Below are positions 2,593-28,640 of a stretch of 32,071 nucleotides of DNA, piece by piece. The first letter of the stretch is position 1, and each line of letters begins with the position of its first letter. Made by a program: the position numbers and the translations under genes. The notes below the pieces were generated by a model that ran no database searches, was not told the origin of the DNA, and saw nothing but the letters and a program-made list of their open reading frames with translations. Location of the stretch: assembly GCA_003697085.1 (NCBI GenBank), contig RFFU01000082.1:1-32071 (forward strand), given 5' to 3'. Source of the DNA: Candidatus Hydrogenedentota bacterium. GTDB taxonomy: Bacteria > UBA8481 > J006.

Positions 2593-2629
2593 TTGACTAT
2601 GACACAAAATTGAGCATATTTCCTAGAAT
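2593..2629 (+). promoter_or_regulatory. Candidate promoter(s) for the purine-pyrimidine superoperon
   Basis: Two overlapping options are visible: TTGACT (2593-2598), 16 bases, CATATT (2615-2620); or ATGACA (2599-2604), 19 bases, TAGAAT (2624-2629). Either gives a start near 2630-2636 and a guaB3 leader of about 165 bases. Neither is perfect, so the exact choice is open. No other promoter is evident in the following 17 kb, where genes overlap almost throughout. Confidence 0.45.
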
Positions 2630-2797: not shown

Positions 2798-3961
2798 ATG
2801 GCGTATTACATCGGGATGAACCGTAAGGCGCGGCGCGCGTATGGTTTTGACGAGGTGGCGTTGGTTCCCGGACAATGCACGATCAATCCGGAGGAAGTGG
2901 ATATCGGCTTCCAAGTCGGTGATGTTCGGTTGGAGGTTCCCATCATTGCCAGTGCGATGGATGGGGTCGTTGATACGCGATTTGCGGTCGAGATGAGCCG
3001 ATTGGGGGGGATGGCCGTTCTGAACCTGGAAGGAGTTCAAACGCGTTATGAAGACCCCTCGTCGGTTTTGGATGAGATAGCAGGTTCTGATCCGGAGACG
3101 GCGACCCGGTTGATCCAGAAACTTTATGTTCCGCCGGTGAAGACGGAATTGATCGGAACGCGTATTGAGGAGATCAAGAAAGCCGGAGGTATTGCAGCCG
3201 TTTCCGCAACGCCGCAAAAGGCTGAAGAATACATCGGTCCGGCTCAAGAGGCCGGCGTAGATATTTTCGTCGTGCAATCGACGGTTGCAACGGTGCGCCA
3301 CATCTCGACGCAATACAAGACCCTCGATTTGGCGAAATTCTGTCGAGAGGCGAAGGTTCCCGTCATCGTTGGCAACACGGTGACGTACGAGATGGCGTTG
3401 GAGGTGATGGCGGCCGGGCCCGCGGGTCTTCTGGTGGGAATCGGTCCCGGCGCGGCCTGCACGACGCGAGGAGTTCTTGGGATCGGAGTTCCGCAGGTGA
3501 CGGCGACGGTCGATTCCGCCGCGGCGCGGGATATGTTCCACAAGCAAAGCGGGCGGTACATTCCGATCATCACGGATGGCGGTATGAGCACGGGGGGCGA
3601 TATTTGTAAGGCTTTCGCCAGCGGCGCGGACGCCGTTATGATCGGCTCGGCCTTCGCGAAGGCTTCGGAAGCCCCCGGGCGGGGATATCACTGGGGGATG
3701 GCGACGCCGCACTCGAATCTGCCGCGGGGGACCCGTGTCCGCGTTGGGATCACCGGTTCCTTGGAACAGATACTCCTCGGGCCGGCGAACCTGGATGACG
3801 GGACGCAGAATCTTGTCGGCGCCTTGAAACTCTGTATGGGGTCGGTGGGAGCCAGGAATATCAAAGAACTTCAAATGACGGAGTTGATCATCGCCCCCGC
3901 AATCAAGACGGAAGGAAAACTCTTCCAGAGAACCCAGCATATCGGTATGGGGAAGTCGTGA
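2798..3961 (+). CDS. guaB3: GuaB3-family IMP dehydrogenase
   Basis: Oxidises IMP to XMP with NAD+, the committed step to GMP. The 387-residue protein is a bare TIM barrel without the CBS pair of classical GuaB, and the N-terminal [15 protein letters not shown] is the GuaB3 pattern. The catalytic loop is GPGAACTTR with the active-site Cys at 221, followed by the phosphate-binding [10 protein letters not shown] at about 260-269. The start fits the family N-terminus and has AAGGAG/AGGAG upstream. It is first gene of the superoperon and overlaps guaA by four bases. Pairing with guaA supports a true IMP dehydrogenase role rather than GMP reductase. No CBS-containing guaB is in the window, so this may be the main enzyme (inference). 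Confidence 0.93.
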
Positions 3962-5616
3962 GAGAAGGGAACGATTTCGAACCAGAAAAGGAAGCGCGTT
4001 TGCATTCCACGATCGCGATTCTGGATTTTGGCTCGCAGTACACGCAGTTGATCGCGCGGGCGATTCGCGAGCAGGGGGTTTATTCAGTGATCTTCCCGTG
4101 TTCCGCATCTCCCGAGGAGGTGAGGCGGGTTTCTCCACGAGGGCTCGTTTTGTCCGGCGGTCCCTCGAGCGTTTTGGATGAGGAAGCGCCGCGCTGCCAC
4201 GAGTCATTTCTGGAAGGTGAAATTCCGGTGCTTGGCATCTGTTACGGAATGCAGTTTCTCTGCCGGGAACTCGGGGGAGACGTTCGGCCGGGTTCCGCGC
4301 GGGAATACGGGCGCGCCGAGATCGTGGTCGCCGACGGCGGAAGGAGGCCGTCTCCGCCGCGGCTCTTTTCTGATCTTCCTAAAACGCAAGCGGTTTGGAT
4401 GAGCCATGGGGATTGGGTGGAACGCTTGCCGAAGGGCTTCCATCCCGTTGCCTTTTCGAGGAACGGAACGAAAGAAACGCCGGCGAGGGATGAAACGCCG
4501 GCGAATTCGTTGCGGGGGTGTGTTGCGGTGGAAGATGAGGCCGGCCGTCGTTTCGGCCTCCAGTTCCATCCGGAAGTTCGGCATACGAAATTCGGAAAGG
4601 AAATCCTCTCCCGTTTCCTCTTCGATGTGTGTGGGTGCCGCGCCGATTGGACGCCGTCCTCTTTCATCGAGGAGACGATTTCGGCCGTGCGGGAACGAGT
4701 CGGGGATTCTCACGTCGTATTGGGGTTGAGCGGAGGCGTGGACTCTTCCGTCGCCGCGGTTCTGCTCCATCGCGCCCTTGGAAAGAAACTTCATTGTATC
4801 TTCGTGGATAACGGTTTGCTGAGGAAGGGGGAGAGGAAGGAGGTCATCGAACGTTTTCGAGAGGCGATTGGGATTCCTCTTCACGTGGTGGATGCCTCGG
4901 AACGGTTCGTGCAATCCCTGATCGGAGTTACGGATCCGGAGGAGAAACGCAGGATCATCGGCCGTCTCTTTATCGAGACTTTTCGCGGCGCGTTGAAGGA
5001 ACTGACGGCCCGCGACGAAAGGATCCGCTTTTTGGCTCAGGGGACTCTTTATCCCGATGTGATCGAGAGCGTTTCGGCTACGGGAGGGCCCAGCGCGAAG
5101 ATCAAAACGCACCACAATGTCGGAGGTTTGCCCGACGATCTCAACTTTGAACTGATCGAACCGTTGAAGATGCTTTTCAAGGATGATGTCCGCCGGATCG
5201 GCCGTGAACTTGGGATTCAGGAAGAGATTCTTCAACGCCATCCTTTTCCGGGACCGGGGTTGGCCGTGAGAATTTTGGGGGAGGTGACACCGGAGGGGTT
5301 GGCGATACTGCGGGAGGCGGATGCGATTTTTATCGAAGAATTGCGCCGCGCGGGAAAGTACGACGACGTGAGCCAAGCCTTGGCCGTGCTTCTTCCCGTT
5401 CGAAGCGTCGGTGTGATGGGAGATGCTCGAACCTACGAACGGGTCGTTGCGCTCAGAGCCGTCACGACGGAGGACTTTATGACGGCCGACTGGGCTCGCC
5501 TTCCTGCTGATCTTTTGGCGCGTGTCGCGAATCGGATTATCAACGAGGTCTCCGGAGTGAACCGTGTTGTGTATGATATCTCTTCGAAGCCGCCGGCGAC
5601 GATCGAGTGGGAATAG
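3958..5616 (+). CDS. guaA: GMP synthase (glutamine-hydrolysing)
   Basis: Converts XMP to GMP with ATP and glutamine. The N-terminal class I glutamine amidotransferase domain has nucleophile C95 in GICYGMQ and the H204/E206 pair in QFHPEV. The ATP-pyrophosphatase domain has SGGVDSS at 258-264, and the C-terminal dimerisation domain ends in the usual IEWE. At 552 residues it is longer than the usual 510-525, because of a leader of about 15 residues before the conserved [11 protein letters not shown] and a hydrophilic insertion around residues 166-190 of the amidotransferase domain. The GTG start overlaps the guaB3 stop by four bases; TTG at 4000 would give a more typical N-terminus. Confidence 0.96.
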
Positions 5617-5636
5617 TGGGAGGAGGAGAAAGAAGC

Positions 5637-6170
5637 GTGCGTGTTGGAATCGTGATGGGATCGGATACGGACCTTCCGATTATGGCGGAGGCGGCCAAGG
5701 TTCTCCGGGATATGGAAATCGAGTATGAGGTGCGGATCATCTCGGCGCATCGGACGCCGGAAGAAGCGGCCGAATATGCTCGTACGGCCCGCTCCCGTGG
5801 ACTCGAAGTGATCATCGCCGGCGCCGGTGGGGCGGCGCATCTGGCTGGAAGTCTGGCCGCCTGCACGACGATCCCGGTTTTGTGTGTTCCGATGCCGACG
5901 ACGAGCCTTGACGGTCTCGACAGCCTCTACTCGATTGTTCAGATGCCGGGAGGGGTTCCGGTAGCCACTCTGGCGATCGGCCGCCCCGGCGCGAAGAACG
6001 CCGGGTTGCTCGCTGCACAGATTCTGGGCTTGAAGGATGAGGCGATTCGCCGCCGGGTGGAAGAGAATCGAATTCGAATGAAGGAAAACGTGCTCGCCAA
6101 GGATCGGCGACTGAGAGAAATCGGAATCGAGGCATATCTCCAGAAGAAAAACCAGGAGAAGAAACGATGA
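5637..6170 (+). CDS. purE: N5-carboxyaminoimidazole ribonucleotide mutase
   Basis: Moves the carboxyl group of N5-CAIR to give CAIR in purine synthesis. The 177-residue product starts [16 protein letters not shown] and carries SAHRTPE (about 36-42) and GAGGAAHL (about 62-69), the PurE active-site segments. I chose GTG at 5637 because GGAGGAGGAG lies about 8 bases before it and the length then matches the family; an open extension back to 5607 would overlap guaA. The 20-base gap after guaA is the only real gap in the superoperon. Features look class I, which normally needs PurK, but no purK is present here. The class assignment is inference. Confidence 0.94.
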
Positions 6171-7051
6171 CGGAATCGTCATTACCGGCTCCGGATTATC
6201 GGGGGAAGGTGCGCGACATCTATGACCTGGGCGACAAACTCCTTCTGGTTGCCTCGGATCGAATCAGCGCCTTCGACGTGGTCTTCGAGGAGCCGGTACC
6301 GGAGAAAGGGCGCATCTTGACCGGCATCAGCGCGTTTTGGTTTTCGTCGGATTCTCCGATCGGCGACATCGTCCCGAATCATCTTCTCGAGACGGAGGTC
6401 GCTCGCTTTCCGGCTCCCTTCAACGAGGCGGTGCAGAGTCTGGACGGCCGCTCGATGCTCGTGAAAAAGGCGCGTCGCGTGGATTTCGAGTGCGTGGTCC
6501 GCGGTTATATTTCCGGATCGGCGTGGCGAGAGTACGCGCGCTGCGGAACGGTGAATGGGATGCCGTTACCGCAAGGATTACGGGAATCGGAGCGTCTTCC
6601 CGAACCGATCTTCACCCCCGCGACGAAAGCGGAATCGGGACATGATGAAAATGTATCCTTCGATCGAATGGCTGAGGATATCGGAGAGGATTTGGCGAAG
6701 CGTCTTCGCGACATTTCGCTTTCCTTGTACGAGGCGGCTGCGGAATATGTCGCGAAAGCGGGGCTTCTCCTGGCCGACACCAAATTCGAGTTCGGAATCG
6801 ATGAGAAGGGGGAGATTCTTTTGATCGACGAAGCGTTGACACCGGATTCATCCCGGTATTGGTTTCAGGATCGCTACGAAATCGGACGCCCCCAATTCGC
6901 CTTGGACAAGCAGTATCTCCGCGATTATCTCGAAACACTCGACTGGAACAAACAACCTCCTCCGCCCCGCCTGCCTTCTTCGGTTATCGAAAATACGGCG
7001 GAGCGGTATCGTACCGCTTACCGGCTCGTAACAGGGAGAGAATTTCAATGA
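6167..7051 (+). CDS. purC: SAICAR synthetase (phosphoribosylaminoimidazole-succinocarboxamide synthase)
   Basis: Joins CAIR and aspartate with ATP to give SAICAR. The N-terminus [29 protein letters not shown] is the nucleotide-binding start of the family, split here across strands [10 protein letters not shown] and [13 protein letters not shown]. The segments [22 protein letters not shown] and [12 protein letters not shown] are conserved. At 294 residues it belongs to the longer version of the family rather than the roughly 240-residue one. ATGA overlaps the purE stop. Confidence 0.96.
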
Positions 7052-7284
7052 GGTATGTCGTCGAGGTGCATTTGAAGCCGGAGGTATCGGATCCCGAGGG
7101 GGCTGCCATCCTTCAAGCCGCGCGGGCGCTCGGGTTCGATTTTCTTTCCGATGTGCGCGTCGGAAAGAGTTTCGAGATCGAGGTGAAGGAGGGGACGGAG
7201 GAGAAGGAGTTGGAAGTCCTCAGCGACAAGTTGCTAGTGAACCCCGTCGTCGAGACCTTCAGGATTCGCCGCGATGACGATTGA
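7048..7284 (+). CDS. purS: Phosphoribosylformylglycinamidine synthase subunit PurS
   Basis: Small structural subunit that bridges PurL and PurQ in the three-part FGAM synthase. The 78-residue product reads [18 protein letters not shown], then [15 protein letters not shown] and [12 protein letters not shown], the usual PurS core. ATG at 7048 overlaps the purC stop by four bases, and the gene overlaps purQ by 11 bases. Its presence agrees with a small-type PurL and a separate PurQ directly downstream. Confidence 0.95.
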
Positions 7285-7942
7285 AGCGGGGGTCATCGTC
7301 TTTCCCGGTTCGAACTGCGATCGGGACTGTGTCCGGGCTCTGAAGGGAATGGAGGGATACCGTGTTCGGGAGATTTGGCACCGCGAGACGGAACTCGGCG
7401 GGCTGGACCTCGTCGTTCTCCCGGGGGGATTCTCCTACGGCGACTACCTTCGACCGGGGGCGATCGCGCGGTTTTCTCCGATTGTGCGGGAGGTGACTCG
7501 TTTCGCTGAACGCGGAGGGTATGTTCTGGGAATCTGTAACGGGTTCCAGATATTACTGGAGGCCGGGCTGCTTCCGGGAGCCTTGATCCGCAACGCGGGC
7601 CTTCGTTTTATTTGTGAGCCGGTTCCGCTTGAATGCACGAATACGAATACTCCGTTTACGAAAAAGGTGCCACGGAACCTCACGCTTCCGATTGCGCACG
7701 GACAAGGAAGATATTTCATTGATGAAACGGGTCGTTCGAAACTCGAAGCCGAAGGACGGATCGTGCTGCGTTATGCCGGAGGTACCAATCCGAACGGTTC
7801 AACGAATCGGATAGCGGGAATTGTGAATGAAAAAGGAAACGTATTGGGAATGATGCCTCATCCGGAGCGGGCCTGCGAAATCTTGATCGGTTCCAGCGAA
7901 GACGGGCGCTCTTTCTTCGAATCCCTTTTGCAGGCGGCTTGA
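7274..7942 (+). CDS. purQ: Phosphoribosylformylglycinamidine synthase, glutaminase subunit PurQ
   Basis: Hydrolyses glutamine to feed ammonia to PurL in the fourth purine step. It is a class I amidotransferase of 222 residues, with PGSNCDRD near the N-terminus, nucleophile C88 in LGICNGFQ and the H196/E198 pair in MMPHPER. The start inside purS suggests translational coupling. One base separates it from purL. Confidence 0.97.
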
Positions 7943-7943
7943 C

Positions 7944-10244
7944 GTGAGAGAAGCCCCGGTGTTGCAAATCCCGAAAAGGGACACGGTGCCGAGCGAAGGG
8001 ACGAGCAAAACGTTTCTTCAGAGTTTGGGGTTGTCTGAGGAGGAAATCGAGCGGATTCGATCACTCTTGGGACGGGAGCCCACCGAGACGGAATGGGGGA
8101 TCTTCTCCGTGATGTGGTCCGAACACTGCTCCTACAAGAATACGAAACGTCTCTTGGCCGCTCTTCCTACGAGCGGGAAAGATGTGCTTCAAGGTCCGGG
8201 GGAGAATGCCGGAGTGGTCGCCGTCGATGAAGAGTGGGCGGTCGCCTTCAAGGTCGAATCCCACAATCATCCCTCCTTCGTGGAGCCTTATCAAGGGGCC
8301 GCCACGGGGGTCGGGGGCATTCTGCGGGATATCTTCACGATGGGGGCCCGTCCCATCGCTCTTCTCGATTCGCTTCACTTCGGGTCGACGGAAAACGATG
8401 TTCACTCAATACGCTCCCGCCGTATCGCGGAAGGTGTCGTTCGGGCGATCGCCGATTACGGAAACTGTGTCGGGATTCCCACGGTGGCGGGGGAAACGCA
8501 TTTTGACCGGAGCTACTCCGGGAATCCCTTGGTCAATGTCATGGCCGTGGGGGTCGTGAAACGGAAGGATGTGGCGCGAGCCGTCGCGTCGGAACCCGGA
8601 CGAAAGGTGTTGTATTACGGCAATCCGACGGGACGTGACGGAGTGCACGGCGCCACGATGGCCTCGGAGACATTTGAAGTCGAAGACGAAGATAAACGAA
8701 TCAATGTTCAGGTCGGGGATCCCTTTATGGAAAAGAAGATTCTCGAAGCGACGCTGGAACTCGTTCAAGCAGGTCTCCTTGAAGCCGTCCAGGATATGGG
8801 TGCCGCCGGCCTGACGTGTTCCTCCTGCGAAATGGCGGGTCGGGGGAACACGGGAATACGAATTCATCTAAACAGAATCCCTTTACGGGCCGAAGGACTC
8901 ACTCCATACGAGATTATGCTGTCGGAATCGCAAGAACGAATGCTGGCCGTCGTGAAGGAGGAGAATTGGGAGAGCGCTCGCCGGATACTCGAAAAATGGG
9001 ATCTCGAAGCCGTAGATATCGGAGAAACGACGGGCGACGGATGGATGCGCGTCTGGGGGAACGAAGAGCCGGAGACGGAGGTGGCGGCGATTCCCGTGCG
9101 TTGTCTTACGACAGAGGCGCCGGTTTATTTGCCGCGACGCGCGGGAAAGAAAAGCGGGGCGGAGGTGCGCCCGCAACCCGCGCTTTCCTCGGAAGAGGGC
9201 AACGATATTTCCGGACATCTCCTTCGATTTCTCGCCTCTGAGAATGTTTCTTCGCGCCGCCCGATCTACCGGCAATACGATACAATGGTCGGCACGCGAA
9301 CGGTTTGGAAGACCGTGGGAGGTGATGCCGCTGTCCTTCGCCTGGACGGTACGGAGAAGGGGCTGGCCGTCACGATCGATTCGAACGCGCGTTTCGCCCG
9401 GCACGATCCCTTTCGGGCTTCCGAGTATGCCGTCATCGAAGCCGCAAGAAACATCGCGGCCGTCGGAGCTCGGCCGCTGGCCGTCACCAATTGCCTCAAC
9501 TACGGCGATCCCGGAAATCCGGAGCGCTTCGAGGAGATCGCGGCCGGGGTCGAGGGTTTGGGATATGCCTGCGCCCGAATCGGAACTCCGGTCACCGGCG
9601 GCAATGTTTCGTTGTACAACGAAACGGCGGGCGCGGCGATTCTTCCGACGACTGTGGTGGGAATGATCGGGATAATGGATGATTACCGCAGGACAACAAG
9701 CCCGGCCCTTTCCGGCGACGATCTCTGGCTTCTCGGAACCCATTCACCGTCTTTGGCGGGAAGCGAGTATGAACACTGGAGCCGGGGAGAAACCTCGGCG
9801 GCTCTTCCGGAGATTGATTACGATTTCGAGCGATCTCTGCATGCCTTTATGGTGGAGGCGGTCTCGAAGAATCTTCTTCGTTCCGCTCACGACATCTCCG
9901 CGGGAGGGATTTTCGTGGCGGCAGTGGAGATGGTCTTGAAAGGGAAACGCGGTTTGGTTTGGGAGAAGGTTCCGGAAGATGATGATTTCGCCCTTGTTGA
10001 GTATCTGCTGGGCGAGGGAGGCGCGGCGATGTTGATTGCGACGGCGGCCGAAAAGCGGGGCACCGTGGAGGCGTTGGCTCGACGGTGGAATTTGCTCATC
10101 GAGCGGGTGGCGTCGATCGAGGGGGATCGGCTCGTCTTCGGAAAGCAAATCTCATTTTCGCTCGAGAATCTCGCCGCCGCGTGGGAAGGGGATCTCGAAA
10201 AGAGGATTTTTTTACTTGCCGGGAAGGAGGAGGCAGCCTCGTGA
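7944..10244 (+). CDS. purL: Phosphoribosylformylglycinamidine synthase, large subunit PurL
   Basis: ATP-dependent synthase part of the FGAM synthase complex. The 766-residue protein is the small PurL type with two AIR-synthase-like halves. It shows SEHCSYK at 59-65 with the catalytic His, ESHNHPS at 105-111 and TGGNVSLYNET in the second half. It lacks the fused glutaminase of large PurL, matching the separate purS and purQ. GTG at 7944 was taken from the one-base gap to purQ; the Shine-Dalgarno is weak and the first 25 or so residues are not conserved, so a later GTG is possible. Confidence 0.96.
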   Translation: MREAPVLQIPKRDTVPSEGTSKTFLQSLGLSEEEIERIRSLLGREPTETEWGIFSVMWSEHCSYKNTKRLLAALPTSGKDVLQGPGENAGVVAVDEEWAVAFKVESHNHPSFVEPYQGAATGVGGILRDIFTMGARPIALLDSLHFGSTENDVHSIRSRRIAEGVVRAIADYGNCVGIPTVAGETHFDRSYSGNPLVNVMAVGVVKRKDVARAVASEPGRKVLYYGNPTGRDGVHGATMASETFEVEDEDKRINVQVGDPFMEKKILEATLELVQAGLLEAVQDMGAAGLTCSSCEMAGRGNTGIRIHLNRIPLRAEGLTPYEIMLSESQERMLAVVKEENWESARRILEKWDLEAVDIGETTGDGWMRVWGNEEPETEVAAIPVRCLTTEAPVYLPRRAGKKSGAEVRPQPALSSEEGNDISGHLLRFLASENVSSRRPIYRQYDTMVGTRTVWKTVGGDAAVLRLDGTEKGLAVTIDSNARFARHDPFRASEYAVIEAARNIAAVGARPLAVTNCLNYGDPGNPERFEEIAAGVEGLGYACARIGTPVTGGNVSLYNETAGAAILPTTVVGMIGIMDDYRRTTSPALSGDDLWLLGTHSPSLAGSEYEHWSRGETSAALPEIDYDFERSLHAFMVEAVSKNLLRSAHDISAGGIFVAAVEMVLKGKRGLVWEKVPEDDDFALVEYLLGEGGAAMLIATAAEKRGTVEALARRWNLLIERVASIEGDRLVFGKQISFSLENLAAAWEGDLEKRIFLLAGKEEAAS

Positions 10245-11695
10245 AAGACTTCCCTCTGAAAGCACTTTCTTTCCATCCCAGGGAGGAGTGTGGCGTCGTC
10301 GGTATTTGGAACGTTCCGGAGGCGGCGAAATTGGCGTATCTCGGCCTTTACACGCTCCAGCATCGCGGGCAGGAGAGCGCGGGGATCGTGACGGCTCGAG
10401 AGGGAGAGTTGTGGGGGCACCGGGGAATGGGGCTCGTGGCCGATGTCTTCGATGCTGAAACATTAAATCATTTACCGGGCACGCGGGCCATCGGCCACGT
10501 ACGGTACTCGACGACGGGGGACCCGGATCCCGAGAATTGCCAACCGCTTCAGATTCAATACCGCCGAGGGGGATTGGCCTTGGCTCACAACGGAAACATC
10601 GTCAACGCCTCGAGTATCCGGAGGGAATTGGAATTGTCGGGAGCCATCTTTCATACGACGGTCGATTCCGAGGTGATACTCCATCTCTTGGCGCGAGATG
10701 TCGGAAGCTTTGAAGACACTCTCTTCTCGGCGTTGTCGGCGGTCCGTGGCGCCTACTCAATGGTGATTCTCACGCCGGAATCACTTGTGGCGGTGAGGGA
10801 CCCCAATGGTTTTCGACCGCTTCTTTTGGGACGTCTCAAGGAAGGCTGGGTCGTGGCTTCCGAGACCTGCGCCTTCGACCTGATCGGGGCCGTTTATGAA
10901 CGGGAGGTTGAACCAGGGGAGGTGATCATCTTCGATCGGGAGGGATTGCGTTCGCGCCGCCTGGCGCCGGCTTCGCGCCAATCCCTTTGCATTTTCGAAC
11001 TGATTTATTTTTCTCGGCCGGACAGTACGATCTTCGAGGAGTCAGTTCACGAAGCGCGATTGCGTTTGGGAGCGGCGCTGGCGCGAGCCTGCCCCGCCGA
11101 GGCGGATGTCGTCATTTCCGTGCCGGATTCCTCGAATACCGCAGCGCTCGGATATGCTCGGGAAGCCGGTCTGCCCTTCGAGCAGGGGTTGATCCGTTCC
11201 CACTACATCGGGCGGACATTCATCGAGCCGGACGCGAACATCCGGGATTTCGGCGTCCGGTTGAAGTACAATCCGGTCCGAGCCGTGCTCGAAGGGAGGC
11301 GCATCGTGCTCGTGGATGACTCGATCGTTCGAGGCAGTACCAGCCGGAAGATCGTGAGAATGATTCGCGCGGCCGGCGCGCGGGAGATTCATATGCGGAT
11401 TTCCTGTCCCCCCTGGCGGTACCCCTGTAACTACGGAATCGATACTCCCGAGGCCGAAAAACTCATTGCGCACAGGAACGATGTCGAGACGATTCGGAAG
11501 GAGATAGACGCCGATTCGCTCGGGTATCTCACGGTCGAGCAGATGTTGGCGGCGATTCCGAATCATCAATTCTGCACGGCCTGCTTCACCGGCGACTATC
11601 CGGTTCGTTTCGAGACGCGCGAGAAGAAGACGGTTCTCGGAACCGGACGCCGGACGACGGTCGCAAGAAAGGCGGGAGGATTCTTATGCCTCTGA
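10241..11695 (+). CDS. purF: Amidophosphoribosyltransferase
   Basis: First committed purine step: PRPP plus glutamine to phosphoribosylamine. GTG at 10241 overlaps the purL stop by four bases, has GGAGG about 10 bases upstream and gives 484 residues; a longer open frame from 10085 lies inside purL and is rejected. A propeptide of 16 residues precedes nucleophile C17 in EECGVVG, so maturation by cleavage is expected as in the Bacillus type. Likely [4Fe-4S] ligands are C250, C389 or C396, and C445/C448. The PRPP site VLVDDSIVRGS is at about 355-365. Confidence 0.96.
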   Translation: MKDFPLKALSFHPREECGVVGIWNVPEAAKLAYLGLYTLQHRGQESAGIVTAREGELWGHRGMGLVADVFDAETLNHLPGTRAIGHVRYSTTGDPDPENCQPLQIQYRRGGLALAHNGNIVNASSIRRELELSGAIFHTTVDSEVILHLLARDVGSFEDTLFSALSAVRGAYSMVILTPESLVAVRDPNGFRPLLLGRLKEGWVVASETCAFDLIGAVYEREVEPGEVIIFDREGLRSRRLAPASRQSLCIFELIYFSRPDSTIFEESVHEARLRLGAALARACPAEADVVISVPDSSNTAALGYAREAGLPFEQGLIRSHYIGRTFIEPDANIRDFGVRLKYNPVRAVLEGRRIVLVDDSIVRGSTSRKIVRMIRAAGAREIHMRISCPPWRYPCNYGIDTPEAEKLIAHRNDVETIRKEIDADSLGYLTVEQMLAAIPNHQFCTACFTGDYPVRFETREKKTVLGTGRRTTVARKAGGFLCL

Positions 11696-12687
11696 CCTAC
11701 GAACAAACCGGCGTGGACACGAAGCGCGGGGATGAAGTTGTCCAGCGCTTAAGACGATTTCTTCCGGAGATCGGAGATTTCAACGGGCGCTTCCCGTTAC
11801 CGGAGTTTTCCGGTGTTCGCCCCTCGCTGGTGGCCGCCGCCGACGGCGTCGGTACGAAGGTTCTTCTGGTGAAGGACAGGGAAGACCGTCTCGCGATCGG
11901 AACCGACCTTGTTGCAATGAATATCAACGACATACTTTGTTCGGGCGCGAAACCGCTTTTCTTTCTCGACTATATCGCGACCGGTCGCCTCGATCCGGAA
12001 AAGGTGGAGGAATTGGTTCGCGGTATCGGACAGGCCTGCGACGAGGCCGGCTGCATCCTTCTCGGTGGAGAAACAGCGGAAATGCCCGATCTTTACGGCG
12101 AAGAAGAATTCGATCTGGCCGGCTTTGCCGTGGGAATCGTGGACGAGGAAAAGGCCTGGGGGCGGCATCGAGTCCGAAGCGGCGATCTCCTCGTCGGCTT
12201 GGCGTCCTCGGGGATTCATTCGAACGGGTTGACATTGGCACGGAAGGCTCTGCGGCGTTTTCTCGAAGGGCCGGATAAGGACGAGACAGTTCGAAAAAGA
12301 CTTCTCGTTCCGACACGAATCTATGCCCGCGCGGTCGAAGCCTTGCCCGACGAGGCGGTTCACGCCGCCGCTCACATTACCGGAGGAGGGCTCGTGGGAA
12401 ATCTCGTTCGCGTTCTTCCGGAAGGTGCGGGGTTCCGAATCGACAAGAGAACGTGGATCGTTCCTGAAGTTTTCGAGTTGATCCGGCGGGAAGGGCGGGT
12501 AGAAAACGACGAAATGTTCAGCGTGTTCAATATGGGAATTGGAATGGTCCTCGTTTCGGAAAGGGAATCCGGAGACGAAATCCGTCGTATTTTGGAAGAG
12601 AGAGGATATGCGAGCTCGATCATCGGAGAGGTGACGGAGACCGGAACTGTCGAATGGAAAGATTCCGATGGAGGAACGCATCGATGA
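11686..12687 (+). CDS. purM: Phosphoribosylformylglycinamidine cyclo-ligase (AIR synthetase)
   Basis: Closes FGAM to aminoimidazole ribonucleotide with ATP. The 333-residue protein begins TYEQTGVDTKRGDEVV and has the GVGTK motif, ATDLVAMNINDILCSGAKPLFFLDY in conserved pieces (NINDILCSGA, LFFLDYIATG), the GGETAEMPDLY loop and ITGGGLVGN. It overlaps purF by 10 bases and purB by four. Confidence 0.97.
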   Translation: MPLTYEQTGVDTKRGDEVVQRLRRFLPEIGDFNGRFPLPEFSGVRPSLVAAADGVGTKVLLVKDREDRLAIGTDLVAMNINDILCSGAKPLFFLDYIATGRLDPEKVEELVRGIGQACDEAGCILLGGETAEMPDLYGEEEFDLAGFAVGIVDEEKAWGRHRVRSGDLLVGLASSGIHSNGLTLARKALRRFLEGPDKDETVRKRLLVPTRIYARAVEALPDEAVHAAAHITGGGLVGNLVRVLPEGAGFRIDKRTWIVPEVFELIRREGRVENDEMFSVFNMGIGMVLVSERESGDEIRRILEERGYASSIIGEVTETGTVEWKDSDGGTHR

Positions 12688-13988
12688 TACCGCGGTATGT
12701 TCGGGAGGAGATGGGGGAACTCTGGAGTGAGGAGAGCAAATTCAAACGTTGGCTCGAAGTGGAATTGGCCTATTGCCGCGCCTGCCGGGAGGAAGGTCTG
12801 CTTTCGGAGGAAGATTGGCGGACGATCCAAGAGAAAGCCGAGGTTCGCATCGAGAGAATTCTCGAGATAGAGGAACGGACCCACCATGACGTCATTGCCT
12901 TTCTGGAAGCGCTCGGGGAGAACGTAGGGCCGGCCGCAAGGTTTATCCATCTCGGCCTGACCTCGAGCGATATCGTTGATACGGCCAACGCCTTGGCCTT
13001 GACGCGCGCCGCCGACGTGCTTCTTCAAGGGCTCTCTCTTTTGCTCGACTCGGTGCGTGAAAAGGCCTGCCGGTACAAGTTCCTCGTCTGCGCGGGGCGT
13101 ACCCATGGCATACACGCCGAACCGACGACCTTCGGGATCAAAATGGCCGTCTTCTGGGCCGAACTGAAACGACAGGAGAGGAGATTGAAGCAGGCTCGAG
13201 AAGAGATTGCGTGTGGAAAATTGTCCGGAGCGGTCGGATGTTATGCGGAGGTTTCGCCGGAACGAGAAGCCCGAGCGCTTTCCTTTCTCGGTCTGAAGCG
13301 GGATGAAGCGGCCACGCAGGTTATTCAGCGGGATCGCCATGCCGCGCTGATCGGGAATCTTGCTCTTCTCGGTGGAACTTTGGAACGGATGGCGGTCGAG
13401 TTTCGGCACCTTCAGCGAACGGAAGTCGGCGAGGTTCGGGAGCCTTTCGCCCAAGGGCAAAAAGGGTCTTCGGCGATGCCGCACAAGAGAAATCCGATCG
13501 TATGCGAACGGATTTCCGGCCTGGCGAGGCTTCTCCGTTCCTACGCGTTGGCCGCGATGGAAAACCAGGCCTTGTGGCACGAGCGGGATATTTCCCATTC
13601 CAGCGTGGAACGGGTGATCTTTCCGGACGCCTTTTGTGTAGCCGATTATATGCTCGATCGTATGACACGGATCGTGTCCGGTCTTGTCGTGAATGAGAAA
13701 CGAATGAAAGAAATATTGGATTCCTCCCGGGGACTGCTTTATTCGAGTCGGATATTGACGGCGCTGATGCGAAAGGGGGTTTCGAGGAATGCCGCTTATG
13801 AATGGGTTCAAGCGGCCGCGATGCGTTCCCAAGACGAGGAGAAATCGTTCGTGGATTGTCTGATTCAGGAACCTTTTGCGGGAGGAGAACCGCCGCTGGC
13901 GGAAGAGGAAATTCGAGAATTGGCGACGCCGGAGTATCTTCATGCTTCGGCGGAAAAAATTTTTTTGCGACTGGGGCTGGACGGATGA
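12684..13988 (+). CDS. purB: Adenylosuccinate lyase
   Basis: Releases fumarate from SAICAR and from adenylosuccinate. ATG at 12684 overlaps the purM stop as ATGA and has GAGGA upstream; it gives 434 residues starting MIPRYVREEMGELWSEE, the short Bacillus-like form. Active-site segments are TSSDIVDT (93-100), GRTHGIHAEPTTFG (138-151) and the fumarase-superfamily signature GSSAMPHKRNP (261-271). An in-frame extension to 12654 lies within purM and is not needed. Confidence 0.97.
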   Translation: MIPRYVREEMGELWSEESKFKRWLEVELAYCRACREEGLLSEEDWRTIQEKAEVRIERILEIEERTHHDVIAFLEALGENVGPAARFIHLGLTSSDIVDTANALALTRAADVLLQGLSLLLDSVREKACRYKFLVCAGRTHGIHAEPTTFGIKMAVFWAELKRQERRLKQAREEIACGKLSGAVGCYAEVSPEREARALSFLGLKRDEAATQVIQRDRHAALIGNLALLGGTLERMAVEFRHLQRTEVGEVREPFAQGQKGSSAMPHKRNPIVCERISGLARLLRSYALAAMENQALWHERDISHSSVERVIFPDAFCVADYMLDRMTRIVSGLVVNEKRMKEILDSSRGLLYSSRILTALMRKGVSRNAAYEWVQAAAMRSQDEEKSFVDCLIQEPFAGGEPPLAEEEIRELATPEYLHASAEKIFLRLGLDG

Positions 13989-15286
13989 AGATTCTTGTCG
14001 TGGGTTCGGGCGGTCGCGAGGATGCTTTGGCTTGGCGGCTTTCGCAGGAAAGAGACGCGGACGTTTTTACAACGCCGGGGAATTGTGGAACCGCCCGTTG
14101 GGGTGAAAATCTCGAGGGTGATCCCGAGGAAGTCGCGGCAAGGTTGGAACCGGACCTAATCGTTGTGGGGCCGGAAGCCCCGCTGGCGGAGGGACTCGGG
14201 GACCGATTGCGTTCCGCGGGATTTGCGGTGGTGGGTCCCTCGGCGGAAGCGGCACGCGTGGAGTCAAGCAAGTCCTTCGCAAAAGAGTTGATGAAGCGCG
14301 CGGGAGTTCCCACAGCCCGATCCTTGAAAGCAAGAAACCTCGAGGAAGCGCGGAAGGCGGTCGCGGAAGTGGGGCGTTTCTCCGAATCTTCCGACTCCCC
14401 CCGGCGCGGCGTCGTCGTCAAAGCGGATGGATTGGCTGCCGGGAAGGGGGTTACCGTTTGCCGCACTGAAGAAGAAGCCGAGAACGCTGTCAGGGAGATA
14501 TTCGTGGAACATCGTTTTGGAGAAGATTCTCCTGTCGCCGTGATCGAGGAGATCCTTGTTGGAAGGGAAGCCTCGATGTTGGCCGTCGTCTCTTCCGGGA
14601 CCTTTCTCCTCCTTCCCGGCGCGGAAGATCACAAGGCGGTGGGGGACGGGGATAGCGGACCAAATACGGGGGGAATGGGAGCCATCTCTCCGACTCCGGT
14701 CCTGACGAGCGAAATCGAAGAGAAGGTGTCGGAAAGGATATTCCAGCCGATGGTGGAAACGTTGTTCCGGGAAGGGCTCGATTACAGGGGAATCCTTTAT
14801 GCCGGTTTGATGATTTCCCCTTCAGGAGATCCGAGTGTGGTCGAATTCAACTGCCGCTTCGGCGATCCGGAGGCGCAAGCGGTGCTTCCCAGAGTAAGAG
14901 GTCCTCTTTTGGACGTTCTTCAAGCCTGTGCGACGGGGGAAAGGTTGGTGGGGAGACTCGAGGTCGATTCGAGTGCGGTTGCGTGTGTCATTGCCGCTTC
15001 GGAAGGTTATCCCGTTGCGACGCGTACAGGCATGCCGATCGAGGGGCTTTCGCTCGATGACACTGTTGACGAGACGGGGCTTCCGGAGGTCTTCGTTTCC
15101 GGGGTCAAGCGCCGAGGCGATATCTTCGTAACCGCGGGCGGGCGCGTCGGGGGGTTTATGGGGCGTGGAGAAACGCTTGGAGCGGCGTTGGAGATTGCTT
15201 ATCGCTCGCTCGAAAAGGTTCGGTGGGAAGGGATGCACTTTCGAAGGGATATCGGTCGTCGAGAGAAAAGGGGGCTTGTCGTATGA
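13985..15286 (+). CDS. purD: Phosphoribosylamine-glycine ligase (GAR synthetase)
   Basis: Second purine step, joining phosphoribosylamine and glycine with ATP. The 433-residue ATP-grasp enzyme starts MKILVVGSGGREDALAW and has the family segments VGPEAPLAEGL, VVKADGLAAGKGV, GAEDHKAVGDGD, NTGGMGA and FNCRFGDPEAQ. The start overlaps the purB stop as ATGA. It is the last purine gene; pyrR follows with a four-base overlap and no spacer for a separate promoter. Confidence 0.97.
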   Translation: MKILVVGSGGREDALAWRLSQERDADVFTTPGNCGTARWGENLEGDPEEVAARLEPDLIVVGPEAPLAEGLGDRLRSAGFAVVGPSAEAARVESSKSFAKELMKRAGVPTARSLKARNLEEARKAVAEVGRFSESSDSPRRGVVVKADGLAAGKGVTVCRTEEEAENAVREIFVEHRFGEDSPVAVIEEILVGREASMLAVVSSGTFLLLPGAEDHKAVGDGDSGPNTGGMGAISPTPVLTSEIEEKVSERIFQPMVETLFREGLDYRGILYAGLMISPSGDPSVVEFNCRFGDPEAQAVLPRVRGPLLDVLQACATGERLVGRLEVDSSAVACVIAASEGYPVATRTGMPIEGLSLDDTVDETGLPEVFVSGVKRRGDIFVTAGGRVGGFMGRGETLGAALEIAYRSLEKVRWEGMHFRRDIGRREKRGLVV

Positions 15287-15861
15287 CGGAGAAGAAAGGG
15301 GTTTCCGGCGGCCGGATGAAAGGGGTAATGAGTGCGGGTGAAATGACGGCGGTGCTTGAGGAGATGGGCAGTGCCATCCTGGACGTATGCGGTGAGGATC
15401 CTCCGCGATTTGTTGGGATTCTCTCCCGGGGCGTTCCCCTTTCCCATAGGTTGGGACGGATCGTCTCTTCGGGGGAACGGGAGATATCGGAATACGGCGA
15501 ACTCGATATCGCGCTTTATCGCGATGATTTCACGGAAGGAGGCGGCGATTGGCCGGAGGTGCGCGGGAGTCGGATCCCCTTTGATATTGCGGGAAAGACG
15601 ATCATATTGGTCGATGACGTTTTGTTCACCGGAAGAACGATTCGCGCGGCCTTGAATGCCTTGATGGATTATGGCCGCCCGAAAAAGGTTCTTTTGGCGG
15701 TTCTGATCGATCGAGGCGGGCGGGAACTTCCGATCCAGGCGGACTTCGTCGGAAAGCGTATAGAGGTCGGCGAGCAGGACCATGTGCGCGTGCGGTTGCG
15801 AGAGGTGGATGGAGAGGATGGGGTCGTGATCTTCCAACGGCGGAAAGGCGGGGAAGAATGA
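15283..15861 (+). CDS. pyrR: PyrR, pyrimidine regulatory protein / uracil phosphoribosyltransferase
   Basis: PyrR proteins bind uridine nucleotides and pyr mRNA to cause attenuation or translational repression, and many also have uracil phosphoribosyltransferase activity. The 192-residue product has GILSRGVPL, the typical ALYRDDF stretch (78-83) and the PRPP loop [17 protein letters not shown] (107-123). It has about 15 extra N-terminal residues before the conserved start MSAGEM. It opens the pyr half of the superoperon, overlapping purD and pyrB by four bases each, so no attenuator can precede it locally. The target of any regulation is therefore not obvious from the sequence. Confidence 0.93.
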
Positions 15862-16799
15862 TTCGGTTGCGATCCCGGCATCTCCTCACGATCGAGGAAC
15901 TCACCCACGATGAGATTCTCGAGATCCTCGATACGGCGAGAGGAATGAAAGAAGTCTTTGCTTCTCGAGAGGAAAATACCCGTGCCGTAAAAAAGGTTCC
16001 TGTCCTTCAGGGGAGGACCGTCGTGATTCTCTTTTTTGAGCCCTCGACGAGGACGAGGCAGTCTTTTGAGTTGGCGGCGAAACGGTTGAGCGCGGATGTG
16101 GTGACACTCAACATTGCGGCGTCGAGCCGGGAGAAGGGAGAAACCATCATCGACACGGTCCGTACGCTTGAGGCGATGGCGAGCGACATTATCGTCGTGC
16201 GCCATCGTTCCTCCGGCGTCCCGCGGTTGCTTTCGAAAACCGTTCGTTCCTCGATCGTCAACGCCGGCGACGGCTGCCATGCGCATCCCACGCAGGCGCT
16301 GCTCGATTTTTTCACGATGCGCGAACATCTTGGGGAATTGAAAGGAAGGAAGGTCGTGATCGTGGGGGACATTCTGCACAGCCGTGTCGCCCGCTCGAAC
16401 ATCCACGGCCTCCAAAAATTGGGGGTCAAGGTAACGCTGGTCGGGCCTCCAAGTTTGGTTCCGCGGGAATTCTCCCGGTTGGGGGTGGAGATCGAGTACG
16501 ATTTCGACCGAGCGTTGGCCGGAGCCGATGTCGTTATGATGTTGCGAATACAGAAGGAGCGGATGATGGGCGCTTTCTTTCCGTCCATCGGGGAGTACCA
16601 CCGATTTTATGGATTGAATCGACAACGCCTTGCACTGGCGAAACCGGACTGTCTCGTGATGCACCCCGGGCCGATCAATCGCGGGGTGGAGATCGACTCG
16701 GACGTGGCGGACGGGCCGCAATCCGTGATTTGCGAACAAGTCACCAACGGAGTGGCTGTTCGGATGGCGATCCTCTATCTTTTGGCGTCGCGGCTATGA
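15858..16799 (+). CDS. pyrB: Aspartate carbamoyltransferase catalytic subunit
   Basis: Makes carbamoyl-aspartate from carbamoyl phosphate and aspartate. The 313-residue protein carries FEPSTRTR (60-67) for carbamoyl phosphate, then HPTQALLD and MHPGPINRG. No regulatory subunit pyrI follows, so it is a catalytic-only enzyme. Adjacency to an active-type dihydroorotase leaves open a PyrB-PyrC complex as seen in some bacteria (inference). ATGA overlaps join it to both neighbours. Confidence 0.97.
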
Positions 16800-18091
16800 G
16801 AACGGAGGAAGAGGCGGTGTTGCTCAAGGGCGGGCGCCTGGTCGATCCCGGCTTCGATGGAGAGGAATCGGTCGACCTCCTGATTCGCAACGGGCGAATC
16901 GAGGCGATCGGGAAGGATCTTTCGTTTGCTGATGTTCGGGTGAAGGACATCCGCGGACAGTGGATCGTGCCAGGACTTATCGATCTTCATGTCCATTTTC
17001 GGGAACCGGGAGAAGAGGAGAAAGAGACGATCGCGACCGGCTCGGCCGCCGCGGTCAAGGGGGGCTTTACAGCCGTGTGTTGTATGCCGAATACTTCTCC
17101 GCCCCTGGATACCCCCGCGGGGATTCGTTTCGTCATCGATCGCGCGAACGTTGTCGGAAAGGCACGGGTTTACCCCATCGGGGCGATCACGATGGGATTG
17201 GAAGGCGAGGGCCTGACGAATATCGGAAGTCTCGCCGAAGCGGGTGCCGTTGCTTTGTCCGATGACGGCAGGATGGTTATGGATTCGCGGATAATGAGAC
17301 GGGCGATGGAATACGCGAAGGCGTTCGGGATCCCGTTTACCCTCCATTCCATCGATGAGAATCTCGCGGCCGGCGGTCATATGAACGAGGGAGTCGTTTC
17401 AGCAAAATTGGGCGTGAGCGGAAGCCCCGCGCACGCGGAAATCATTGCGGTTATGAGAGACGTTGCGTTGGCGGAATTGACCGGAGCGCGGGTTCATATC
17501 GCCCATGTTTCGACAAAGGGAGCCATTGAAGTGATCCGAAGAGCGAAGGAGAAGGGTTTGCCCGTTACCGCGGAGGTCACACCGCACCACCTCATCCTGA
17601 CGGAAGAAGCCGTGGAGGATTACGACCCGAACTTCAAGATGAATCCCCCTTTGAGGACGAAGGAGGATCGAGAGGCGCTTCAAGAAGCGCTTCAAGAGGG
17701 GATCATCGATGCGATTGCGACGGATCACGCCCCCCATACCGTTCTCGAGAAAAGTCTGCCTTTCGATGAGGCTCCTTTCGGGGTGACGGGATTGGAAACG
17801 GCGGTCGCCGCGACATATACCTATCTCGTGAAACCGGGAATTCTGAAACCGAGGCGATGGATCGAGAGTCTTGCAACAATGCCGGCGAAAATTTTCGGGC
17901 TTCCGGGAGGACGCCTGGCGGTCGGGGAACCCGCCGATCTGACCGTTATCGACCCGAATCTGGCGAAGGAGGTCAAGGAAGAGGATTTTGTTGGAAAAGG
18001 AAAAAACAGTTGTTTTCTCGGAGAAACGCTTTCGGGGTGGCCGACGATGACGTTTGTCGGGGGGCGGTGTCAATACGCCGCGGAGGAGTGA
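16796..18091 (+). CDS. pyrC: Dihydroorotase
   Basis: Cyclises carbamoyl-aspartate to dihydroorotate. The 431-residue amidohydrolase has the metal motif HVH (65-67) in [10 protein letters not shown] and the later segments [21 protein letters not shown] and ATDHAPH. With its metal and substrate residues intact it should be active, not a PyrC-like pseudo-enzyme. ATG at 16796 overlaps pyrB as ATGA; a longer frame back to 16730 is inside pyrB. Confidence 0.96.
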
Positions 18092-19095
18092 TGTTTTACG
18101 AAAAGATTCTCCGTCCCCTTCTGTTTCGAGCCGATCCAGAGAAAATACACGATCGTTTAGTCACTCTTCTTGCTTCGACGCCGGTCTCGGCTTTCGCTCC
18201 CGAGCGAAGGATTTTTTCGATGGGCGGCTTCGAGAAGATCGGCCTCCGTTTTCGTAATCCGGTCGGTCTTGCCGCCGGTTTCGACAAGAACGCGGCTGCG
18301 CTTCCGGCGTGGTATCACTTGGGATTTGGATTTTGTGAGATCGGAACGGTGACACCGCGGCCTCAGACCGGGAACCCGAAGCCTAGAATTCGCAGGATTC
18401 CGGAGGAGAAAGCCCTGGTGAACCGAATGGGCTTTCCCAATGTCGGGGCCCGGGAAGTACGGCGCCGCTTGGAACGATTTAGAGATAAAATGAAGAGAAC
18501 GGATTTTTCGATCGGTGTCAATATCGGGAAGAATCGGGATACGGCGATAGAGAAATCGGGTCAGGATTACGGAGCATGTGTCGAGATATTGGGAGAGGTT
18601 GCGGATTTTTTCGTGCTCAATCTCAGCTCTCCCAATACGCCGGACCTGCGACGCCTTCAAGGGACGGAATATCTCGAAGGAATTCTCGGGACAGTTCAAG
18701 AGAGAAACCGTCGCGGTGAGGAAAAACCGATACTCTTGAAAATATCTCCGGACGAAACGGAAGAGCGATATGAAGAGATTGCAGAGGTGATACGGAAGTT
18801 CGGACTCGGGGGAGCGGTGGCAACCAACACAACCGTGTTTTGTCCGAATGAGTGGAAGATTCAAGGAGGCGGGGGAATGAGCGGTGCACCGCTGCGGGAG
18901 AGGAGCGGGAGGGTGGCTCGAAGAATGAGGGATCTTCTTGGAGAAGACTTCCTTGTCATCGGTGTGGGCGGTGTCCTTTCGGGGGAGGACGCCCGGGCTC
19001 GGAGAAACGCCGGTGCCGACTTGATTGAACTCTATTCCGGCCTCGTGTATCGCGGTCCCGGTTTGGTTCGGGAATGCCTCGAGGCTCTCTCGTGA
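18091..19095 (+). CDS. pyrD: Dihydroorotate dehydrogenase, class 2 (quinone-dependent)
   Basis: FMN enzyme oxidising dihydroorotate to orotate and passing electrons to membrane quinone. The 334-residue product starts [21 protein letters not shown], the membrane-associating N-terminal segment of class 2, and has GLAAGFDKNA, EIGTVTPRPQ, NRMGFPN and NLSSPNTPDL (177-186) with the class 2 catalytic serine. Class 2 works without PyrK, and none is seen. The start shares one base with the pyrC stop (TGATG). It implies a respiratory chain. Confidence 0.96.
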   Translation: MFYEKILRPLLFRADPEKIHDRLVTLLASTPVSAFAPERRIFSMGGFEKIGLRFRNPVGLAAGFDKNAAALPAWYHLGFGFCEIGTVTPRPQTGNPKPRIRRIPEEKALVNRMGFPNVGAREVRRRLERFRDKMKRTDFSIGVNIGKNRDTAIEKSGQDYGACVEILGEVADFFVLNLSSPNTPDLRRLQGTEYLEGILGTVQERNRRGEEKPILLKISPDETEERYEEIAEVIRKFGLGGAVATNTTVFCPNEWKIQGGGGMSGAPLRERSGRVARRMRDLLGEDFLVIGVGGVLSGEDARARRNAGADLIELYSGLVYRGPGLVRECLEALS

Positions 19096-19814
19096 AGCAC
19101 GCACTCCCCTCTTGCCCCGTCATTCCGGCTCTCGATCTTTCTTCCGAAGAAGAAGCCCTGGAGTTGGTGCGGGCTCTTTCCCCGCCTTGTGAGATCTTCA
19201 AGATCGGCCTGCGTCTCTTCTGCCGGGGAGGCCCGGATTTCGTGAGACGGCTGGCGGGAGAAACAGGCGCGAAGATCTTTCTCGATTTGAAATTGCATGA
19301 TATTCCCCGCACGGTTGCCACCGCCGTCCGTGAGTTGCGTTCCTTGAACGTGACATTTGTGACCGTCCATATCAGCGGCGGACGGGAAATGATTCGTGCT
19401 GCGGTTGAAGCGGCGGAAGAAGGAATGGCGGTTCTTGGCGTGACGGTTTTGACGAGTCTTTCCGCAGAGGCGAGTCAGAAGATATTTGGAGTAAGCGAGC
19501 CGGAAAGCGCGGTCCTCCGTTTTGCAAGGTGGGCGGTCGAGGAACGATTGGCGGGAGTGGTGGCGTCTCCGTTGGAAGTGGCGCCGATCAGAGAACGTTT
19601 TTCTCGGGAGGAACTTCTTGTTGTGACGCCGGGAATTCGGCTGTCGGAAAAAGAAAGAAGAGGGGATGACGATCAGGCGCGTGCGGCCACGCCGCGAAAG
19701 GCTTTTTCCGAGGGGGCCGATTATCTCGTGGTCGGCCGTCCGCTCTACGAATCGAAAAAACCGCGGGAGGTTCTGGAGGAGATTCTTTCCGAATATGAGG
19801 AATTGAGAAGATGA
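19092..19814 (+). CDS. pyrF: Orotidine 5'-phosphate decarboxylase
   Basis: Last step to UMP. The 240-residue barrel has PVIPALDLSS at the N-terminus, FKIGLRLF, and the catalytic DLKLHDIP with D65, K67 and D70. VVTPGIR and the C-terminal YLVVGRPLY bind phosphate. GTG at 19092 overlaps pyrD by four bases (GTGA); an earlier in-frame start at 19074 is inside pyrD. Confidence 0.97.
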   Translation: MKHALPSCPVIPALDLSSEEEALELVRALSPPCEIFKIGLRLFCRGGPDFVRRLAGETGAKIFLDLKLHDIPRTVATAVRELRSLNVTFVTVHISGGREMIRAAVEAAEEGMAVLGVTVLTSLSAEASQKIFGVSEPESAVLRFARWAVEERLAGVVASPLEVAPIRERFSREELLVVTPGIRLSEKERRGDDDQARAATPRKAFSEGADYLVVGRPLYESKKPREVLEEILSEYEELRR

Positions 19815-20413
19815 AGAATGAGGAAAGCGGGAGGAAGGGGAAAGGAATCGAGGAAGCATTGGAACGGACCGGCGCCGTCTTGACGGGTCACTTCCGTCTG
19901 GCTTCCGGTCTTCATTCGGATCGGTATCTCCAGTGCGCGCGGCTCTTGGCGATTCCGCGGGAGGCCCGGGCGGTTGGGAAGGCCTTGGCGGAGGAATTTC
20001 GAAACCATAACGTAGATGCGGTTGTCGGTCCGGCGCTGGGCGGTGTTGTTTTGTCATTCGTCGTGGCGGACGCTTTGGGAGTTCCGGGTTACTTTGCCGA
20101 AAAATCCTCCGATGCTCCCAACGGCTTTCTTCTTCGCCGAGGATTTCCGGTTCCGCGCGGAAAACGGGTTCTGCTTGTCGAGGATGTAATCACCACCGGC
20201 GGCTCGATCCTGCGCCTGCGGAATTATTTGCGGGGACTTGGAGCGGAAATTGTTGGTATCGGCGCCATAGTGGACCGCAGAGCGAACGATGAGGGATTTG
20301 TTTCGAAAGAGGCGTACCGGGCTCTCGTTCGTATCCACGCACGGCTTTACCAGGAAGAAAATTGTCCACTGTGCGCGAAAGGGCTTCCTCTGGACCGTCC
20401 CGGAAGTGGTTGA
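19811..20413 (+). CDS. pyrE: Orotate phosphoribosyltransferase
   Basis: Attaches orotate to PRPP giving OMP. The 200-residue product has the PRPP loop VLLVEDVITTGGS (120-132), HFRLASGLHSD near the N-terminus and VGPALGGVVLSF. The C-terminal CPLCAKGLPL with two cysteines is common in this subgroup. It closes the superoperon; a terminator lies about 190 bases downstream. Confidence 0.96.
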   Translation: MKNEESGRKGKGIEEALERTGAVLTGHFRLASGLHSDRYLQCARLLAIPREARAVGKALAEEFRNHNVDAVVGPALGGVVLSFVVADALGVPGYFAEKSSDAPNGFLLRRGFPVPRGKRVLLVEDVITTGGSILRLRNYLRGLGAEIVGIGAIVDRRANDEGFVSKEAYRALVRIHARLYQEENCPLCAKGLPLDRPGSG

Positions 20414-20600: not shown

Positions 20601-20630
20601 GGCATGATTCGGAGGATCATGCCCATTTTT
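20601..20630 (+). terminator. Intrinsic terminator of the nucleotide superoperon
   Basis: Perfect 8-bp stem GGCATGAT (20601-20608) with ATCATGCC (20616-20623), 7-base loop, then CA and five T (20626-20630). It is the first terminator-like structure after the 17 overlapping genes and separates them from the PilZ-like gene. Confidence 0.75.
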
Positions 20631-20658
20631 CGCCACGCTCCCCTCACTCAAGCGCAGG

Positions 20659-20696: not shown

Positions 20697-21482
20697 ATGG
20701 AAGGAAAAACACGAGACAACCGTATCTTCGTTCGGTATAAGGCCGCCTTCGGGACGAACATCTCTCTTCGCCCTGAGGGAATGGAAGAGTTCGATGCCCG
20801 CCTGCTCGATCTGAATAAGGCCGGCGGTTTCGGAGTCTTCATCCCGATGAAGAACAATATCGGCAATCTCTTTTTCTCAACGGTGTTTCTCCCGTGGATC
20901 CTCATCCGGCAAAGTCGCGGCGGCTTGATCGAGGTTCCAACAAGAGTGTATAACGCGATTCCAACGGTGATGTACAATGAAACGGGCATCCGTATGGCGC
21001 TCTTGCACGTCGATTCCCGCGGGCGTTGGATGGCGCAACAGGGGCGGAAACGGCGGGTCAAAGAGCGTCTAAAGGTTGACTCTCTCTCCGTGGAACTTCG
21101 CAATAAGGAAATTCTCTTCACCGGCAATCTTTATGACATCAGTGAAGATGACGGAGCCGGGATCGATGTGACTCCGGACGGAGTGGGCGAAGCGACATGG
21201 AATCATGTTTTCAACGGTACGTGGAAGTTGTTTCTTATGGGAAGAACCTTCCCGACGAAGATTCGACGTGTCTCCGTGGGAGAGACCTCGGTTCAACTGG
21301 GAGTCAATGCGAATGGAATTTCGAAGATGATCGATGAACTTACGGCTCAATCGGAAACGGATGCAAACGAAACCTCGAAAGAGCCGGCGAAGGTGACTCC
21401 GTCAGGATCGGATGACGAACTCGTGGCTTTTCTCGAGGAGTTTATGAAGGAATCCGGGGAGCCGGAAAAAAAGTCGGGTTGA
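20697..21482 (+). CDS. Protein with two PilZ-like domains, possible c-di-GMP receptor
   Basis: 261 residues, soluble, no signal peptide. The first half has R9-x3-R13 (RIFVR) followed by DLNKAGG (39-45), close to the PilZ pattern RxxxR...DxSxxG. The second half repeats it as R120-x3-R124 (RVKER) with DISEDDGAGI (147-156), which has one extra residue before the glycine. The C-terminal 50 residues are acidic and probably disordered, with a short helix ELVAFLEEFMKES. PilZ domains bind cyclic di-GMP; whether both sites are functional is uncertain. Partners are not shown by context: it is a single gene between the superoperon terminator and convergent hemC, 17 bases away. Confidence 0.7.
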   Translation: MEGKTRDNRIFVRYKAAFGTNISLRPEGMEEFDARLLDLNKAGGFGVFIPMKNNIGNLFFSTVFLPWILIRQSRGGLIEVPTRVYNAIPTVMYNETGIRMALLHVDSRGRWMAQQGRKRRVKERLKVDSLSVELRNKEILFTGNLYDISEDDGAGIDVTPDGVGEATWNHVFNGTWKLFLMGRTFPTKIRRVSVGETSVQLGVNANGISKMIDELTAQSETDANETSKEPAKVTPSGSDDELVAFLEEFMKESGEPEKKSG

Positions 21483-26303: not shown

Positions 26304-26376
<73 letters not shown>

Positions 26377-28627: not shown

Positions 28628-28640
28628 GACGCCGGAAGGA

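Follow-up and report, generated by a model that had tools for sequence, protein, structure and literature searches.

In the textbook system, the PyrR protein binds to attenuators in the leader of the pyr operon, and in the pyr operon of Bacillus subtilis pyrR is the first gene, with attenuators located before pyrR, pyrP, and pyrB (PMC7430163). According to the textbook view, separate control of the pur and pyr operons lets the two pools be balanced. A literature search of incomplete coverage found no work on mixed purine/pyrimidine operons. The locus described here resembles the B. subtilis pyr operon (PMC7430163) in that pyrR is found together with pyr genes; here, however, pyrR is the twelfth gene of a run that begins with purine genes, it overlaps purD, and no PyrR element accompanies it.

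The window, i. e. the whole stretch of 32,071 nucleotides that was analysed, corresponds to bases 1-32071 of contig C117 in the draft genome G000 (3.2 Mb in 145 contigs, 94.6% complete). Open reading frame and family scans of positions 2798-20413 confirmed 17 intact purine/GMP and pyr genes, including pyrR, on the forward strand: guaB3 (2798-3961), guaA for GMP synthase (3958-5616), purE (5637-6170; start chosen by its ribosome-binding site), purC (6167-7051), purS (7048-7284), purQ (7274-7942), purL (7944-10244), purF (10241-11695), purM (11686-12687), purB (12684-13988), purD (13985-15286), pyrR (15283-15861), pyrB (15858-16799), pyrC (16796-18091), pyrD (18091-19095), pyrF (19092-19814), and pyrE (19811-20413). 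The locus contains contiguous pur genes with orthologous products on one strand, as expected for a purine (pur/gua) operon, and these run directly into pyrR-pyrB-pyrC and the other pyr genes, forming a mixed pur-pyr superoperon. The junctions are tight. Recomputation gave the same count as before, 14 overlaps, a 1-base gap between purQ and purL, and a 20-base gap between guaA and purE in which GGAGGAGGAG precedes the purE start codon GTG at 5637. The overlaps are mostly of the ATGA type and span 4 bases (guaB3/guaA, purE/purC, purC/purS, purL/purF, purM/purB, purB/purD, purD/pyrR, pyrR/pyrB, pyrB/pyrC, and pyrF/pyrE); the others measure 11 bases (purS/purQ), 10 bases (purF/purM), 1 or 4 bases (pyrC/pyrD), and 4 or 22 bases (pyrD/pyrF).

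Each of the genes is named by NCBIfam models, and for 15 of the 17 at least one equivalog-type model scored above its curated cut-off. The exceptions are purS, with 71.7 bits against a cut-off of 75 but 55.6 bits with TIGR00302 (cut-off 39), and pyrC, which passed the subfamily model TIGR00857 and failed the equivalog models; score and gene order make both identities clear. The pyrR product matched NF003549 with 179 bits, and pyrD encodes a quinone-dependent (class 2) dihydroorotate dehydrogenase. The IMP dehydrogenase is of the GuaB3 type (TIGR01304, 453 bits, cut-off 342), and the canonical model scores far below its own cut-off on this protein. Since no second IMP dehydrogenase-like gene was found in the whole assembly, GuaB3 appears to be the only one it encodes. 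Several steps are located elsewhere, as revealed by searches of the genome with the E. coli proteins: carA-carB, for the first pyrimidine step that is shared with arginine, at C138:28137-32073; purA, for the AMP branch, on contig C119; purH, for the last steps to IMP, on contig C52; and purN-like pieces at contig ends. Neither pathway is therefore complete in the unit, nor is the set for IMP, AMP, and GMP, and the earlier statement that both branches are tied to one promoter can apply only to the genes that are present.

The preliminary description had proposed a comparison of gene order with related genomes. In G001, the only genome of the same order that was compared and a member of another family, so that the lineage is sampled by two genomes, 15 of the 17 genes (guaB3 to pyrD) are present on contig C163 in the same order and on the same strand, with 46-80% protein identity, and purD and pyrR again overlap by 4 bases. 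The pyrF and pyrE genes form an adjacent pair on a different contig, and according to the open reading frame list, purE and purQ are preceded by gaps of about 139 and about 197 bases, respectively. As judged from these two genomes, the fusion of pur to pyr genes is old within the lineage, with a tail that differs; due to the gaps and the separate pyrF-pyrE pair, the unit is not fixed.

How unusual is such a fusion? We surveyed genomes sampled throughout the domain, usually one for each family and many of them fragmented, and could locate both purD and pyrB in 93 of them, in a few cases placing pyrB by the adjacent pyrR. The two genes lie within 2.5 kb of each other in four genomes (G000, G030, G056, and G109); the next shortest distance is 50 kb. 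The view that pur and pyr operons are normally separate holds as a rule (89 of 93), but such clusters also occur in other lineages. Tight purD-pyrB linkage was absent from all 40 named genomes that encode the closest GuaB3 proteins. The clusters of G030 and G056 are large, and in G109 we saw only purQ-purD-pyrR-pyrB-pyrC-pyrD. G056 belongs to the Elusimicrobiota, and purD and pyrB are side by side in about 20 of 60 sampled genomes of this phylum. One member, Endomicrobium proavitum (G259; PMC4505116), has the order purC-purL-purQ-purD-purE-pyrR-pyrB-pyrC-pyrD-pyrF-...-purN-purB. As in our locus, the Elusimicrobiota clusters (G259, G056, G253, G274, and G243) are unidirectional and follow the scheme purC-purL-purQ-(purF)-purD-purE-pyrR-pyrB-pyrC-pyrD-pyrF-pyrE, with some genes undetected in some genomes. 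In contrast to our locus, they are not headed by guaB3-guaA (in G243, a guaB3 match is found some 5 kb upstream), purM-purN-purB come after the pyr genes, the gaps are larger, pyrD matches the class 2 query weakly, and there is no nrdJ gene nearby in the three genomes tested. Conversely, a guaB3-guaA-purC-S-L-Q-F-D-E run headed by guaB3-guaA, as in our locus, is present in other Elusimicrobia (L046, L078, L089, and L103), whereas pyrB is not near purD there.

The cluster of G030 lies on one strand in the order purC-purS-purL-purQ-purF-purD-purE-pyrR-pyrB-pyrC-pyrK-pyrD-pyrF-pyrE-guaB-guaA-carA-carB-purA (purC, purS, pyrK, pyrD, and pyrF were identified by eye from the translations). G240, a second member of its three-genome phylum, has the same arrangement from nrdJ to guaA. 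In both genomes nrdJ adjoins the pur-pyr unit, as it does in our locus; there, however, it is codirectional at the head of the unit, whereas it is divergent in G000 and G001. Moreover, both genomes differ from ours by a canonical GuaB, a PyrD with an apparent PyrK partner, and the gene order, and G030 in addition by having carAB and purA inside the cluster. A PyrB tree placed G000 and G001 in one group and G030, G056, and G109 in another with weak to modest support, and a PyrR tree gave no resolved grouping. The PyrB sequences thus suggest that pur-pyr linkage arose more than once. We would class the present locus as a compact version of an uncommon yet recurrent organization, with pur genes leading into pyrR-pyrB-pyrC, rather than as unique. 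What seems to be new is that PyrR has apparently lost its regulatory signature, and that nrdJ is repeatedly found next to such units, in two unrelated lineages.

This signature emerged from aligning PyrR from 30 loci with the B. subtilis protein; the reference sequence and the numbering, reportedly that of Savacool and Switzer in 2002, are provisional. Positions 19, 22, 140, and 146 are presumably RNA-contact residues. The protein of G000 retains the phosphoribosyltransferase motif, but it carries E19, S22, G140, and Q146, with K at position 152, and so lacks the combination R19/H22/H140/K152. An RF00515 element lies beside pyrR in 10 of 28 loci (most matches score below the gathering score and were accepted for their position), and the four residues are present in all ten loci with the element as compared to three of the 18 without it; since the sites were picked with the alignment in view and the sequences share ancestry, the corresponding Fisher p of 2e-5 is only a guide. 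The signature is absent from all five genomes with linked pur and pyr genes (G000, G001, G030, G056, and G109), but it is not only the fused loci that have lost it, as several other pyrR genes inside operons lack it as well. Because pyrR overlaps purD by 4 bases, it lacks a separate leader, and Rfam detected no PyrR element in the leader of the unit or ahead of either pyrR or pyrB. This, as well as the absence of the element-linked residues, suggests that PyrR of G000 is probably a uracil phosphoribosyltransferase rather than an attenuator protein, which would fit the fused arrangement, although a separate upp gene in the genome may make this enzymatic role redundant. If the association holds, the four residues could be used as a sequence test to distinguish regulatory from purely enzymatic PyrR proteins.

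Upstream of guaB3 lies the divergent nrdJ gene for a class II (B12-dependent) ribonucleotide reductase (1-2140, reverse strand, truncated at the contig end; PF02867, 2.7e-142; PF08471, 4.6e-24). A homologue with 63% identity occupies the same place in G001, again divergent from guaB3 (C163:28868-30901). The gap between nrdJ and guaB3 is AT-rich. It contains a predicted sigma-70 promoter of nrdJ with a 12/12 consensus match and an extended -10 region (2422-2449, reverse strand), and the best candidate for an operon promoter is the weak promoter-like site TTGACT-16-CATATT (9/12; 2593-2620, forward strand). We also considered NrdR-box-like sites: The best one in the window (12/16) was equalled in 8 of 300 shuffles, and those in G001 were unconvincing. 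In G001, the contig that carries the unit also encodes nrdR itself (C163:33333-33797). A search upstream of carA, purA, purH, purN, pyrF, and the operon revealed no common motif in either genome. At the other end, a terminator-like hairpin with a 10-pair stem followed by CATTTTTC is located downstream of pyrE (20601-20634, forward strand) and likely marks the end of the transcription unit. The preliminary description had seen no internal terminator; this is not quite right, as there are hairpins with T-tracts on the same strand in the leader (2666-2696, 8 pairs with one bulge, then a run of seven T, without an Rfam match) and inside pyrD (18191-18218, 8 pairs, then ATTTTTTC). The latter is probably masked by translation, and the four terminator-like sites are only a slight excess over the mean of 1.8 in shuffled sequences.

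We consider it probable that the 17 genes are transcribed as one unit in which PyrR does not control the pyr genes separately. The predicted single-unit architecture is strongly supported by the overlaps and their conservation in G001: Tight junctions between intact reading frames are combined with a shared 15-gene order, the purD/pyrR overlap, a divergent nrdJ in both genomes, and a hairpin after pyrE, and promoter-like and terminator-like sites within the unit are close to the shuffled expectation. The location of the missing steps elsewhere agrees with this reading, as do the lack of a credible Rfam element in either leader or near pyrR and the distribution of the PyrR signature in the loci with RF00515 and in the five linked genomes. 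On the other hand, the candidate main promoter matches at only 9 of 12 positions, there are the hairpins in the leader and in pyrD, the relative has its pyrF-pyrE pair on another contig, the PyrR comparison relies on a provisional numbering and a provisional B. subtilis sequence, and upp exists separately. Internal promoters could also sit in the G001 gaps before purE and purQ. Alternatively, the locus might consist of two or three transcription units, such as guaB3-guaA, possibly extending to purE and beyond, one of pur genes, and one of pyr genes with a promoter inside purD or pyrR, and the clustering would reflect shared function and not control. The G001 gaps, the 20-base gap with its good ribosome-binding site before purE, and a promoter-like site inside pyrR (15581-15608) would agree with several units; yet the purD/pyrR overlap is found in both genomes and promoter-like sites within the unit are about as frequent as in shuffled sequences, and we regard this subdivision as unlikely.

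A quite different possibility is that the hairpin and T-run at 2666-2696 are a true attenuator that responds to a nucleotide or to a protein, possibly the PyrR encoded by the twelfth gene, so that the whole unit would answer to the pyrimidine level. The hairpin is compact, it is followed by ATTTTTTT, and pyrR belongs to the unit. However, Rfam found no PyrR or other element in the leader of G000 with permissive thresholds up to E 5, and in that of G001 only two chance-level matches to eukaryotic or plastid families; the leader folds no better than shuffled sequences (z-score 0.29), an upstream antiterminator partner was not seen, the G001 leader has no hairpin before a T-tract, and the PyrR signature is lost. 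The same results give no positive support to the one leader of the preliminary description, and make such an attenuator very improbable. Finally, the chance that an assembly or binning artefact has joined separate pur and pyr operons is practically negligible even for a draft as fragmented as this one (145 contigs, 94.6% complete), since the independent genome G001 contains the same junctions and gene order at 46-80% identity and purD and pyrR overlap by start and stop codon in both genomes.

If the 17 genes do form one unit, a promoter in the AT-rich nrdJ-guaB3 gap (about 2440-2640) would transcribe them all to the terminator at about 20634, and translational coupling at the overlapping stop and start codons would keep the enzyme ratios. 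Given the overlap of pyrR with purD, the lack of a PyrR-binding element, and the absent residues, the pyr part would have been freed from its own PyrR attenuation, with PyrR serving as a uracil phosphoribosyltransferase, and the balance between purines and pyrimidines would depend chiefly on feedback at the enzymes and on carAB, purA, and purH, which are encoded elsewhere. It is tempting to go further and to speculate that the locus is a divergon, in which one regulated control region drives nrdJ in one direction and the single purine and pyrimidine transcript in the other, that separate PyrR attenuation was given up in favour of a balance based mainly on enzyme feedback, and that nrdJ-pur-pyr loci have more than one origin (G000/G001 and G030/G240); we put this forward only tentatively, and it may well prove wrong. 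Lineages with fused genes and an apparently non-regulatory PyrR offer natural test cases for the question whether purines and pyrimidines need to be balanced at the level of transcription at all.

The unit is followed by an open reading frame for 261 amino acids (20697-21482, forward strand) that has no match in Pfam or NCBIfam. Further downstream, hemC (21500-22522) adjoins three genes on the reverse strand (22383-25137) that, based on Pfam only, resemble the nickel-pincer cofactor genes larC (nickel insertion), larB (AIRC domain), and larE. A parA-parB pair (26794-28660, reverse strand) is found near a tRNA-Phe gene (26304-26376), and this region is possibly close to the chromosome origin.
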